A stretch of DNA of 64,000 nt. Origin: Gammaproteobacteria bacterium. Lineage in GTDB: Bacteria > Pseudomonadota > Gammaproteobacteria > SZUA-229. Below are positions 12,039-18,155 of this stretch, piece by piece. The notes beneath the pieces are model-generated. The model was given only the letters and a program-made list of their open reading frames with translations. It searched no databases and was not told the DNA's origin. Made by a program: the position numbers and the translations under genes. The stretch spans positions 62,001 to 126,000 of the forward strand of contig JAOUKV010000005.1 in NCBI GenBank assembly GCA_029882355.1, written 5' to 3'. How positions within the stretch are numbered: position 1 is the stretch's first letter; each line of letters starts with the position of its first letter.

Positions 12039-12512
12039 ATGCCTACTTTTGTACGTACAGAAAAGTGTGATGGGTGTAAAGGTCAAGACCGTACGGCTTG
12101 CATGTACATCTGCCCTCATGATCTGATGAAACTGGATAAAGATGGTTCTGACACTGGTCACGCCATGAAGTCTTATAACCAGGAACCTGAGCAGTGCTGG
12201 GAATGCTATTCCTGCGTTAAAATCTGCCCACAAAACGCTATCGAATGCCGTCACTATGCTGACGTTGTTCCTTTGGGCGGTTCAGTACAGCCTCTTCGTG
12301 GTACTGATTCAATCATGTGGACCATCAAGTTCCGTAACGGAACTATGAAGCGTTTCAAATTCCCAATCCGCACCACCGCTGAAGGTTCTATCGATCCTTA
12401 TGCAGGTAAAGCTGACGCTGACATGGCTAAGATCGAAGACAACGGTTTCTTCAATCACAATGAACAGAATGGCTACCGCGCTGGCGATCGTAGCGAACTG
12501 ATCAATCTTTAA
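12039..12512 (+). CDS. aprB: Adenylylsulfate (APS) reductase beta subunit
   Basis: AprB passes electrons between the FAD of AprA and the respiratory chain through two 4Fe-4S clusters. Cluster ligands are C10, C13, C21, C25 and C53, C56, C59, C63, with the family-typical DGCKGQDRTACMYICP opening. The C-terminal tail of about 90 residues, which wraps AprA, is present (157 residues in total, full length). The ATG has an AGGAG site. It lies 20 bases before aprA. No aprM or qmo gene follows, so the membrane partner lies elsewhere. Confidence 0.97.
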   Translation: MPTFVRTEKCDGCKGQDRTACMYICPHDLMKLDKDGSDTGHAMKSYNQEPEQCWECYSCVKICPQNAIECRHYADVVPLGGSVQPLRGTDSIMWTIKFRNGTMKRFKFPIRTTAEGSIDPYAGKADADMAKIEDNGFFNHNEQNGYRAGDRSELINL

Positions 12513-12532
12513 TATTAAGAGGTTTAAATAAA

Positions 12533-14518
12533 ATGGCTGAATTTGGAAATCCTGAAGTCATCGAAGAGAGTGTAGACATTCTCCTTATCGGTGGCGGTAT
12601 GGCCTGTTGTGGTACAGCGTTCGAACTTCCTCGCTGGATCGAAGCATCAGGTAAAGATATTACAGTTCGATTAGTTGATAAAGCGGCTATGGATCGCTCT
12701 GGTGCTGTTGCACAGGGTCTGTCTGCGATCAACACTTACATTGGTCCAGAGCAAGATCCTGCTGACTACGCTCGTATGGTCTCTAATGACCTTATGGGTA
12801 TCACTCGTGATGATTTGGCATACGACTTAGGTCGTCATGTTGACGAATCTGTACATTTGTTTGAAGAATGGGGTCTACCTATTTGGAAACTTGACGAGAA
12901 CGGTGAGCGTTTTGACGGTTCTAAAGGTATGACTTCATTGAAAGATGGCGGCAAACCTGTACGTTCTGGTAAATGGCAGATCATGATTAATGGTGAGTCT
13001 TACAAATGGATTGTTGCTGAAGCTGCTAAGAAAGCTTTGGGCATCGAAAACATTTCTGAGCGTGTATTCATCGTTAAACTGATTAACGATAAGAATGATC
13101 CTAGCCGCATCGCTGGTGCTGTTGGTTTCTCTACTCGTGACAACAAAGTAATTGTATACACTGCTAAAGCAATTCTTCTTGCTGCTGGTGGTTGTGTAAA
13201 CATCTTCCGTCCACGTTCTGTTGGTGAAGGTACTGGTCGTGCTTGGTACCCAGTTTGGAACGCAGGTTCAACTTACTCAATGGCTGCTGAAGCTGGTGCT
13301 GAGTTGACACTGATGGAAAATCGCTTTGTACCTACTCGTTTCAAAGACGGTTACGGTCCTGTTGGCGCCTGGTTCCTGTTGTTCAAATCTAAAGCTACAA
13401 ACGCTTATGGCGAAGCTTACATGGAAAAGAACAAAGCAATGTTGGACGACTATCCTCCATACGGCGCTGCAGCAGTTCCTGCTTCTTGTCTACGTAATCA
13501 CTTAATGCTTAAAGAGATGAAAGACGGTAACGGTCCTATCTGGATGGATACTGTGACTGCTCTTGCTAACCTGCGTGAGACTCTGTCTCCTCGTGAAGTT
13601 AAGCATCTTGAAGCTGAAGCATGGGAAGATTTCCTTGACATGTGTGTTGGCCAATGTGGTATTTGGGTTGGTGAGAACATCGAGCCAGAGAAGAAAAACT
13701 CTGAGTTGATGCCTACTGAACCATACCTACTGGGTTCACATTCAGGTTGTTGTGGTATCTGGACTTCAGGTCCTACAGATGTTGGCGCGCCAACAACTGA
13801 AACAGAGCCTGGCGTACCTGATCACCTTCCACAAGGTTGGAACTGGGGCTACCGTGGTATGACCACAGTAAACGGCCTGTTCACAGCTGGTGATGGTGTT
13901 GGTGCTTCTGGTCACAAATTCTCTTCAGGTTCTCATGCTGAAGGTCGTATGTGTGCTAAATCAATGCTGAAATACGTTTTAGACAATGCTGACTACAAAC
14001 CTGAGTTAGATACTTCTGTTGAAGATTTGGTTGCAGCGGTTATTAAACCTGCTAAGACTTTCCTTGAGCATAAAGACTACTCAACAGCGATCGACGTTAA
14101 TCCTAACTACATCACTCCAAAAATGTTGCAGTTCCGTCTGCAAAAAATTATGGATGAGTACGTAGCTGGTGTTGCAACTTACTACAACACTAATGCGGAA
14201 ATGATGCAGGTAGCTGGCGAAAAGATCGACATGCTTAAAGAAGATGCAGAGAAAATGCGTGCTAAAGACCTTCACGAATTACTTCGTGCCTGGGAAAACT
14301 ACCACCGCATCATCACTGCTGAAGCTCATCTGAAACACATTGAGTTCCGTCAGGAATCACGTTACCCAGGTTTCTACTATCGTACAGACAAGAACTTTGT
14401 CGACGAAGAAAACTGGCATTGTTTCGTGAATTCAATTTACGACAAAAAGACTCAAAAGTTCACATGCTTCAAGCGTGCGCACGTTGACTTGGTAGACAAG
14501 TCTAAATTGTTCAAATAA
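12533..14518 (+). CDS. aprA: Adenylylsulfate (APS) reductase alpha subunit
   Basis: AprA is the FAD subunit that, in sulfur oxidisers, forms APS from sulfite and AMP in the cytoplasm. The 661-residue length is normal. An FAD-binding GGGMACCG motif lies at residues 20-27, and the family segments RPRSVGEGTGRAWYP, GVGASGHKFSSGSHAEGR (flavin contact) and the C-terminal helical domain are all present. It is second in aprBA and ends in a strong terminator. Codon use is strikingly regular (many GCT, GGT and CGT codons), in keeping with high expression. Confidence 0.98.
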   Translation: MAEFGNPEVIEESVDILLIGGGMACCGTAFELPRWIEASGKDITVRLVDKAAMDRSGAVAQGLSAINTYIGPEQDPADYARMVSNDLMGITRDDLAYDLGRHVDESVHLFEEWGLPIWKLDENGERFDGSKGMTSLKDGGKPVRSGKWQIMINGESYKWIVAEAAKKALGIENISERVFIVKLINDKNDPSRIAGAVGFSTRDNKVIVYTAKAILLAAGGCVNIFRPRSVGEGTGRAWYPVWNAGSTYSMAAEAGAELTLMENRFVPTRFKDGYGPVGAWFLLFKSKATNAYGEAYMEKNKAMLDDYPPYGAAAVPASCLRNHLMLKEMKDGNGPIWMDTVTALANLRETLSPREVKHLEAEAWEDFLDMCVGQCGIWVGENIEPEKKNSELMPTEPYLLGSHSGCCGIWTSGPTDVGAPTTETEPGVPDHLPQGWNWGYRGMTTVNGLFTAGDGVGASGHKFSSGSHAEGRMCAKSMLKYVLDNADYKPELDTSVEDLVAAVIKPAKTFLEHKDYSTAIDVNPNYITPKMLQFRLQKIMDEYVAGVATYYNTNAEMMQVAGEKIDMLKEDAEKMRAKDLHELLRAWENYHRIITAEAHLKHIEFRQESRYPGFYYRTDKNFVDEENWHCFVNSIYDKKTQKFTCFKRAHVDLVDKSKLFK

Positions 14519-16232: not shown

Positions 16233-16967
16233 TTACGCCTTTATATAGACCCAACCATCCTGCAGACGATTAGGGATTATATCTTTAGCTGTTTTATCAG
16301 TATTCACGCCCGGCATTAGAACAATTTCAACACCTTCTATTTTATTTGCATTAGCAATAGAACGCTTACAAGCAAAAAATGATACCCCCTCATTATCAAT
16401 CATTTTTTGCACACGATCAATATAAGGGGATACATCTGGCCGAAAAATATTTATCCCTTCTTTATTAGTAACCACTTCCAGTTTCATTGGTAGGTTGGCT
16501 TTACGGTAAGTTGCCAGCAAATTATCAGCCTCATTAAGCGCCGAATTAACAACGCGAAAATCACCAGAATCAATATGTAAAACAATTTTGCGTTGCACAT
16601 GATCTACCATGACACGATTGGCAACATATTGAAAAGTGTTCTCAGCGGAAACCGCATTAATTGAATTAGGGCTGTATTGATAGGTTGCCCAACCCAATAT
16701 CACACCTACAACTAATGTAATAGAAGCAGCAACAGCCTTTATATAAATTGAATTTAAATTGGTTTGCCTACTGGCTTGATAACGTGATGCTGGGACCTCA
16801 CTGTAAGCATAACCCACTAACTCACGCACGGCCTTTAACTGACAAACACGCTCACGTAAAACTTTATCACCAAGCAAGGCTTGATGAATTTCATTCATTT
16901 CATCGGTATCGAGTTGTTTATCGATAAATAAATTTAATTTATCTTCAGTAATTTCATTAGCACTCAT
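16233..16967 (-). CDS. Anti-sigma factor with periplasmic DsrE-like domain
   Basis: The 244-residue protein joins a short cytoplasmic anti-sigma-like helical region (about residues 5-55, ITEDKLNLFIDKQLDTDEM), one membrane span (about 77-96) and a C-terminal domain (about 127-244) of the DsrE/F-like fold. The DsrE-like part ends with the family-typical GWVYIKA and has one conserved cysteine, C200, in VSFFACKRSI. The zinc-binding H-x3-C-x2-C motif of ZAS anti-sigma factors is absent. It overlaps the sigma factor gene by one base (TAATG), which fits a sigma/anti-sigma pair. The divergent gene at 17724 encodes a soluble DsrE-like protein with the matching VTFSACKNTI, so the outer domain may sense a sulfur-related signal, or bind that protein. 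The sensing role is inference. Confidence 0.8.
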   Translation of the reverse strand: MSANEITEDKLNLFIDKQLDTDEMNEIHQALLGDKVLRERVCQLKAVRELVGYAYSEVPASRYQASRQTNLNSIYIKAVAASITLVVGVILGWATYQYSPNSINAVSAENTFQYVANRVMVDHVQRKIVLHIDSGDFRVVNSALNEADNLLATYRKANLPMKLEVVTNKEGINIFRPDVSPYIDRVQKMIDNEGVSFFACKRSIANANKIEGVEIVLMPGVNTDKTAKDIIPNRLQDGWVYIKA

Positions 16968-17515
16968 TACTTAACCCTCCGCAACTTAAATTCAACCAGT
17001 TCATCTGAACCAAAGTCCAGTAACTGATGTTTTAAGTTTTTACGTGCCCTAAATAAGCGACTCATTACCGTACCAACCGGCACATCTATAATTTCAGCGA
17101 TCTCGGCATAACTAAAGCCTGCAAAGTCCGCCAAAGTCACCACTTCTCTCAATGGCATGGGCAGCTGCTCTATTGATGTACGTACTCGATCAACTATCTG
17201 GGATTGCTGATAACTTTCAGCATGCTCTAGTTGAGCATCATCATGCATTTCTACAAATTCAACATTTCTGCCTTTAACTCGTAAATAATCCTGCCAACAA
17301 TTAAATAATATCCGATACAACCAGGCATCCAGTGTTCCAACATCCCGTAATTTAGCCGCATTTTTTATCGCCTTATAGATAGCTTCCTGCGCTAAATCGT
17401 CTGCCAATGCGGCATCATGACACCATGAATAGGCGATGCGATAGAGCTTATTACGACGCGCTGAAAATTCTGATTTCAACGAAATTGCAGCCAACATGTT
17501 TTTTACAATTTTCAA
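16967..17515 (-). CDS. ECF-type RNA polymerase sigma factor
   Basis: The 182-residue protein has sigma-70 region 2 (YRIAYSWCHDAALADDLAQEAIYKA with AWLYRILFNCWQDYLR) and region 4 (LREVVTLADFAGFSYAEIAEIIDVPVGTVMSRL) and little else, the layout of extracytoplasmic-function sigma factors. The start is an unusual TTG at 17515: it has GGAGG seven bases upstream, while the first ATG (17497) would be 25 bases away. It is translationally coupled to the anti-sigma gene. A GGAATAAA-N13-CGTCTATA promoter just upstream suggests that the factor drives its own gene. Confidence 0.9.
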   Translation of the reverse strand: MKIVKNMLAAISLKSEFSARRNKLYRIAYSWCHDAALADDLAQEAIYKAIKNAAKLRDVGTLDAWLYRILFNCWQDYLRVKGRNVEFVEMHDDAQLEHAESYQQSQIVDRVRTSIEQLPMPLREVVTLADFAGFSYAEIAEIIDVPVGTVMSRLFRARKNLKHQLLDFGSDELVEFKLRRVK

Positions 17516-17535: not shown

Positions 17536-17564
17536 TATAGACGTCGCTGGCATCTATTTATTCC
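17536..17564 (-). promoter_or_regulatory. Predicted ECF-type promoter of the sigma/anti-sigma operon
   Basis: Read on the minus strand, GGAATAAA (17564-17557) and CGTCTATA (17543-17536) are 13 bases apart, giving GGAAT-N16-CGTC, standard ECF -35/-10 architecture. It lies 20 bases above the TTG start. The same spacing and similar boxes occur on the opposite strand at 17633-17661. Confidence 0.65.
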
Positions 17565-17632
17565 AATTTCACTACAATATTTAATTTTCTTATGCGCTCA
17601 TTCTAACAGCATGAATATATTCATTAAAAACA

Positions 17633-17661
17633 TGAATATTCTCAAATCATCTGCGTCTTTA
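17633..17661 (+). promoter_or_regulatory. Predicted ECF-type promoter of the DsrE-like/porin operon
   Basis: TGAATATT (17633-17640) and CGTCTTTA (17654-17661) are separated by exactly 13 bases, the same arrangement as in the sigma gene's promoter. It lies about 63 bases upstream of the chosen start. A direct repeat of CATGAATAT overlaps the -35 side. Confidence 0.6.
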
Positions 17662-17723: not shown

Positions 17724-18155
17724 ATGAGAAAATTTTATAAATCACTGGTCTTGCTGGTGGCCATGGCATTCATAGCCCCCGCGCACGCTGCTAACGATTT
17801 TGCTGAGGAAAAAATCGTCATACAAATCAGCGACCCCGATCCTTTCAAACAAACACAGGTGCTCAATGTCGCCAACAACCTGATCAAACACTACGGTAAA
17901 AATAAAGTTTCCATCGAAATTGTTGCTTTCGGCCCTGGCTTACGTCTTTTATTTGAGGACAATGTAAACAGTGGCCGTATTGATAGCCTTACAACAGATG
18001 ATGTCACTTTCTCTGCCTGTAAAAACACGATAACAGCCATGACTAAAAAACTGGGACATGCCCCTGCACTACATAGCAATGCAACACCTGTGACTGCTGG
18101 AGTGGTACGTATTATCGACCTGGTTAATCAGGACTACAAACTAATTAAACCTTAA
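17724..18155 (+). CDS. Periplasmic DsrE-like family protein
   Basis: The 143-residue precursor has a signal peptide (MRKFYKSLVLLVAMAFIAPAHA) and a mature DsrE/F-like domain. Family marks include VSIEIVAFGPGLRLLFEDN and the single cysteine C99 in VTFSACKNTI. Cytoplasmic DsrE-type proteins carry sulfane sulfur on a cysteine in sulfur metabolism; whether this exported relative does the same is unknown. I chose the ATG at 17724 because GGAG lies five bases upstream; the ATG at 17709 has none and would place five extra residues before the signal. It is divergent from the ECF sigma pair and 59 bases before the porin gene. Confidence 0.85.
   Translation: MRKFYKSLVLLVAMAFIAPAHAANDFAEEKIVIQISDPDPFKQTQVLNVANNLIKHYGKNKVSIEIVAFGPGLRLLFEDNVNSGRIDSLTTDDVTFSACKNTITAMTKKLGHAPALHSNATPVTAGVVRIIDLVNQDYKLIKP

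Follow-up and report, generated by a model that had tools for sequence, protein, structure and literature searches.

The question raised by this locus is whether two operons that diverge from one intergenic region, one for an ECF sigma factor and its anti-sigma factor and the other for a secreted DsrE-fold protein and a porin, follow a single sigma factor, and what signal that sigma factor might answer. Our reading, which we hold to be quite likely, is that the divergent promoters are those of an ECF26-like sigma factor and that the anti-sigma factor, through a DsrE-fold domain, reads sulfur and frees the sigma factor to act on its own operon, on the dsrE-porin operon, and on soxB. Computation supports the promoters and their conservation, the domain architecture, and the link to soxB. 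Features are listed in Table 1 by position in the window, meaning the whole stretch of 64,000 nucleotides that was analyzed.

Table 1. Features of the divergent sigma/anti-sigma and dsrE-porin locus, in window coordinates
Feature	Position	Strand	Remarks
DsrE-fold domain of anti-sigma factor	16239..16595	-	Residues 125-243; Cys200 is codon 16370-16368
Anti-sigma factor, 244 aa	16233..16967	-	Anti-sigma part at the N terminus, a single membrane helix (about 75-97), DsrE-fold domain at the C terminus
ECF sigma factor, 182 aa	16967..17515	-	Probable TTG start with GGAGG before it; -10 box 20 bases upstream
Predicted promoter of sigma/anti-sigma operon	17536..17564	-	ECF26-type; -35 GGAATAAA at 17557-17564, -10 CGTCTATA at 17536-17543
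Predicted promoter of dsrE-porin operon	17633..17661	+	ECF26-type; -35 TGAATATT at 17633-17640, -10 CGTCTTTA at 17654-17661
Secreted DsrE-fold protein, 143 aa, signal peptide	17724..18155	+	Reading frame open from 17709; invariant Cys at codon 18018-18020
Outer-membrane porin (Porin_O_P-like), 429 aa	18215..19504	+	Second gene of the dsrE operon; Pfam PF07396, E 5.7e-8

Both sites of the original prediction, GGAATAAA-N13-CGTCTATA on the minus strand and TGAATATT-N13-CGTCTTTA on the plus strand, are present where it had placed them. It had called them facing promoters, which is wrong; they stand back to back, their -35 boxes separated by 68 bases. The minus-strand site points leftward, toward the sigma gene, and its plus-strand counterpart points rightward, toward the dsrE-like gene, ending 62 bases before the likely ATG of that gene. 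The plus-strand site is the weaker match (TGAATATT instead of GGAATAAA). The 13-base gap between the 8-mers corresponds to GGAATA-N15-CGTC in the spacer count used below.

A scan with the full pattern, KGAATAWW-N13-CGTCTWTA, gave exactly two matches in the genome of 2,882,775 bases, both at this locus, and one match for the reversed pattern; as these two sites were the source of the pattern, the count is circular in part, and relatives provide the independent test. Looser cores were at or near background in the same genome, with 9 sites for KGAATA-N15-CGTC (15 in the reversed control) and 12 for KGAATA-N16-CGTC (6 in the reversed control), so that the short core alone defines no regulon; a genome-wide regulon drawn from it was rejected for the same closeness to the control. 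Among these 21 short-core sites, an intergenic position, a CGTCT box, and a following gene come together only in the two window sites and in one site before soxB. All three are computed promoter predictions; if they are true promoters, transcripts should start a few bases 3′ of CGTCTNTA upstream of the sigma gene, dsrE, and soxB.

The anti-sigma factor of the window was searched for in 369 genomes of the class, giving some match in 89 and a full-length protein in 65. Our set of 65 loci (67 sigma genes, 39 divergent dsrE genes) joins 60 stretches from the best-scoring full-length rows with the window and its four nearest relatives (L033-L036); one genome (G067) was excluded, as its contig ends inside the locus. 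Within 350 bases upstream, GAATA-N15/16-CGTC was found before 46 of the 67 homologous sigma genes and 23 of the 39 divergent dsrE genes, while controls gave a mean of 0.12 loci per set (50 dinucleotide shuffles) and none in reversed sequences. When spacers of 8 to 24 bases were scanned, the sigma set fell at 15 (13 loci) and 16 (33 loci), with one locus at 8 and none elsewhere; the dsrE set was split between 15 (11 loci) and 16 (12 loci), with single hits at spacers of 9, 23, and 24. In the four nearest relatives, the sigma promoter reads TGAATAAA-N13-CGTCTMTA, and the motif also stands before dsrE. Most of the 21 sigma regions lacking a CGTC match carry a GGAATA-like box with CATC as the -10 element, and once either -10 variant was allowed with a -35 of [GT][GA]AATA, sites appeared in 62 of 67 sigma regions and 30 of 39 dsrE regions (mononucleotide shuffles, 0.33 and 0.23, respectively; reversed, 0).

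The -10 variants suggest that the two promoters of one locus follow the same sigma factor. Where both promoters could be classed (28 loci), 23 were CGTC at both, 4 were CATC at both, and 1 was mixed, an agreement with a Fisher p of 2.4e-4 that ignores shared ancestry; the remaining 11 dsrE rows had CATC only at sigma (5), CATC only at dsrE (2), CGTC only at sigma (2), or neither (2). Conservation across species before both genes, together with the match to a published consensus considered below, thus supports the shared ECF promoter motif that had been proposed. The retention of the motif before homologous sigma genes favors the predicted autoregulation, and its retention before dsrE, along with the -10 variant common to both promoters, favors the predicted control of the DsrE-like/porin operon.

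The sigma sequence itself is tied to the promoter sequence by a split at residue D76 (window numbering). This residue is D at all 46 CGTC loci and at about 1 of 16 CATC loci, where about 15 have another residue (Q, E, S, and G among them); D76 was picked post hoc as the best class-separating column among roughly 155 aligned sigma positions, and the comparison leaves out five sigmas with no classed promoter. Judged from its place in the sequence, D76 sits where region 2.4, which we take to be the reader of the -10 box, is expected. The CATC relatives (L104, L110, L117, L120, L121, L123, L125-L127, L131, and others) combine the changed -10 box with loss of D76, and one can envision a natural shift of -10 recognition. 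Together with D76, the CGTC/CATC split provides a natural experiment on how ECF sigmas recognize the -10 box.

The anti-sigma factor is the unusual member of the pair. A family profile built from 48 of the 67 anti-sigmas matched MTH1491 (1l1s) with an E of 1.5e-21 over residues 125 to 243, and Cys200 is invariant in all 48. Pfam matches among these 48 were weak for the N-terminal part (zf-HC2 in 20, RseA_N in 8) and included DsrE PF02635 in 22. The C-terminal part also resembles the secreted DsrE protein encoded across the intergenic region (30% identity, E 9e-6 by BLASTP), with the invariant cysteines aligned. The structure model made from five close sequences was poor (pLDDT 47), and the DsrE fold of this domain rests on the sequence profiles. 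The membrane helix was read from the sequence; because this one hydrophobic stretch has basic residues before it, the DsrE-fold domain is probably outside the membrane, in the periplasm.

For the secreted protein, the family profile (33 of 39 members) likewise reached 1l1s, with an E of 1.2e-17; PF02635 was matched by 30 of the 33, and the cysteine is invariant in all of them. Its AlphaFold2 model (pLDDT 82) superposes on 1l1s with a TM of 0.92 by target length and an rmsd of 1.5, and only weakly on DsrEFH. Single-sequence Pfam and NCBIfam scans of the window's anti-sigma factor and DsrE-like protein gave chance-level matches, with none to PF02635, so profiles from relatives were needed to reach 1l1s. 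A search of the genome with the secreted-protein profile returned just two proteins, the secreted DsrE protein and the anti-sigma factor. The gene order dsrE-porin is common to most of the divergent loci. Both domains have the fold and the aligned cysteine in common with MTH1491 (1l1s) and ST0148 (2pd2); those two are stand-alone PDB chains, in contrast to the present fusion of the domain to an anti-sigma factor and to its secreted second copy. In the literature outside subscription journals, we found no paper joining a DsrE domain to an anti-sigma factor.

Several loci carry additional copies of these genes. In six of them (L092, L094, L096, L122, L129, and L134), the anti-sigma gene is directly followed, on its own strand, by a second, stand-alone DsrE-fold gene, and two (L092 and L094) have tandem sigma/anti-sigma pairs. 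At L193 (G334; 1005-2059), a GGAATA-N16-CGTCT site stands ahead of ORFs for a short ECF-like sigma factor and an anti-sigma-like protein of 104 aa, which may be a decayed second copy.

To what known group does the sigma factor belong? It matches Sigma70_r2 (E 1.8e-13), Sigma70_r4_2 (E 8.1e-17), and TIGR02937 (83.8 bits, cut-off 42.9), with sigma regions 2 and 4 only, as is the rule for ECF sigmas. An alternative ATG start lies at 17497; the TTG/GTG start and a purine-rich Shine-Dalgarno sequence are kept in the four close relatives. In a tree of 63 rows, the family, represented by 35 of its 67 rows (a random draw plus the window), is sister to Sinorhizobium meliloti RpoE6 together with five alphaproteobacterial sigmas encoded on plasmids (support 96/87), while 22 other ECF rows lie outside this grouping; with RpoE6 as the sole named ECF26 reference and few other groups, this speaks for nearness to ECF26 and not for formal membership. 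The published ECF26 consensus has GGAATA at -35, GT or CGTC at -10, and a spacing that differs by 1 base between promoters (PMC6180224, PMC6527743); the window sites and those of relatives match it. The motif itself is therefore already known as the ECF26 consensus and is not new.

This kinship also brings in the best-surviving alternative, that sulfite is the signal and that what the DsrE-fold domain binds is sulfite itself or a sulfonated thiol, not a persulfide. RpoE1, RpoE4, and RpoE6 of S. meliloti and SigE of Starkeya novella have the promoter consensus in common with the system found here, and in those systems too a sigma gene is followed by that of a membrane anti-sigma factor, with a link to sulfur metabolism; RpoE1, RpoE4, and SigE are reported to answer to sulfite (PMC3511301, PMC6527743). 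However, their targets are sorT and sorAB, whereas soxB is a probable target here, and no sulfite oxidase was seen among the predicted targets of the present system. A DsrE-profile search found no match at the loci encoding RpoE6 and its alphaproteobacterial relatives, which implies that the sensor differs, and a DsrE-fold C-terminal domain is not described for EcfR1, R3, R4, or R6 in the portions of PMC6180224 available to us. The partner expected for an ECF26 sigma factor is a COG5662-type anti-sigma factor, in which an N-terminal anti-sigma domain and a membrane helix precede a periplasmic C-terminal domain; the protein of the window may be of this type. The gammaproteobacterial host and the conserved divergent dsrE-porin operon also set the present system apart. 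We regard a sulfite signal as unlikely, if worth keeping in mind.

The reading in which the circuit serves sulfur oxidation draws on the third intergenic site in the genome, TGAATA-N15-CGTCT, which lies 115 bases before soxB (G000:C50; the product is SoxB by NCBIfam, 731 bits against a cut-off of 550). Among soxB upstream regions of 500 bases, the motif was found in 20 of the 66 that come from genomes encoding the anti-sigma factor and in none of the 40 whose genomes lack it (p 2.3e-5, ignoring shared ancestry), and it was absent on the other strand and in reversed sequence. A looser -35, GAA[AT]A, gave 20 of 66 versus 2 of 40 (p 0.0024). From this set, two truncated regions (L155, L172) and two duplicates (L237, L238) were dropped, and two genomes (G001, G126) contributed two regions each; the 40 controls were drawn from 86 soxB genomes lacking a full-length anti-sigma factor. 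As 46 of the 66 regions have no motif, the predicted control of soxB is lineage dependent. SoxB itself (E below 1e-100) is encoded in 64 of the 65 genomes with a full-length anti-sigma factor (the exception being G055) versus 86 of 304 others, where the 304 include 24 genomes whose DsrE matches were all either partial or stand-alone. The regulon thus probably also includes soxB.

The longer pattern gave 52 sites in 20 genomes. Some precede genes whose products, named by sequence resemblance, are soxX-Y-Z-A-like (G080, G334), a YeeE-like transporter (G250), or further secreted DsrE-like proteins (G371, G080). Others lie inside genes (L182 at 1544, L184, L187, L195, and L196) and were set aside as likely chance or coding conservation. 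Upstream of the genome's own soxXYZA, no site with fewer than two mismatches was found. In two relatives close to each other, L189 (G370) and L190 (G372), near-identical promoter sites are followed by a gene for a 322-aa exported, solute-binding-like protein. In the genome from which the window comes, MsrP, a periplasmic methionine sulfoxide reductase, is encoded past soxB at a distance of about 2.4 kb (L147, 11040-11990, minus strand). Within the window, a ferredoxin-like gene and aprA (adenylylsulfate reductase, TIGR02061) lie about 3 kb from the locus (12039-14518), which fits a sulfur-metabolizing organism.

The promoters could instead belong to an ECF sigma factor of a circuit that senses envelope or redox stress, with the DsrE-fold domain serving solely for structure or protein-protein contacts. 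In its favor, the porin gene is one of the envelope, several copies of the sigma/anti-sigma pair occur in some genomes, and, to our knowledge, not all DsrE-fold proteins have been shown to carry sulfur. Against this stand the cysteine that never varies in either protein family, the near-total co-occurrence with soxB, a motif before soxB found only where the anti-sigma factor is present, and the sites that relatives have before soxXYZA-like genes and the YeeE-like transporter; we find a stress circuit rather improbable. Last, short cores are frequent, and the two sites might be a chance resemblance in an AT-rich intergenic region, with the true promoters elsewhere, e.g., those of a housekeeping sigma factor, but conservation at fixed spacing with shuffles near zero makes this very improbable.

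We therefore return to a sulfur-sensing circuit, in which one promoter would drive the operon of the sigma factor and its anti-sigma factor and the other that of the secreted DsrE-fold protein and the porin. We imagine that the N-terminal part of the anti-sigma factor keeps the sigma factor at the membrane and that the C-terminal DsrE-fold domain reads a sulfur signal at Cys200, the likeliest being sulfane sulfur, or a species akin to it, carried on the cysteine, with release of the sigma factor as the outcome. Once free, the sigma factor would activate its own gene and the dsrE-porin operon and, in this genome as in many related ones, soxB as well. Sulfur binding or transfer by the conserved cysteine is a prediction, and the secreted DsrE protein could be a sulfur carrier, a buffer, or a feedback partner. 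More tentatively, and at somewhat less than an even chance, these proteins may form a so far undescribed class of one-step sulfur sensors, in which the extracytoplasmic DsrE-fold domain of the anti-sigma factor takes sulfane sulfur on its invariant cysteine and controls gammaproteobacterial sox genes, with the secreted DsrE protein as its soluble counterpart; by delivering sulfur to the sensor or draining it away, that protein would provide a built-in feedback.

Other regulators of sulfur oxidation offer partial parallels. ECF sigma-2 of Arcobacter butzleri is likewise linked to sox and activates the sox operon (PMC3445524); the accessible text of that paper has no mention of DsrE. The ArsR-type SoxR and sHdrR of Hyphomicrobium also control sulfur oxidation genes and answer to sulfane sulfur (PMC10451225, PMC12423496). 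They are cytoplasmic repressors, whereas here an activator is paired with a sensor domain predicted to lie outside the membrane.

The circuit formed by the sigma factor, the DsrE-anti-sigma factor, and the DsrE-porin operon, together with soxB as a predicted target, seems to be a variant of the ECF26 type that has not been described before. The ways in which regulators in sulfur oxidizers detect sulfur outside the cell are said to be poorly understood (PMC11582611). If our reading is true, a compact and widespread two-protein system couples a likely periplasmic sulfur-binding fold directly to a sigma factor and sox genes, and Cys200 of the anti-sigma factor, D76 of the sigma factor, and the promoters provide testable handles. 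The bacterium may use this circuit to sense sulfur outside the cell and switch on its sulfur oxidation genes.
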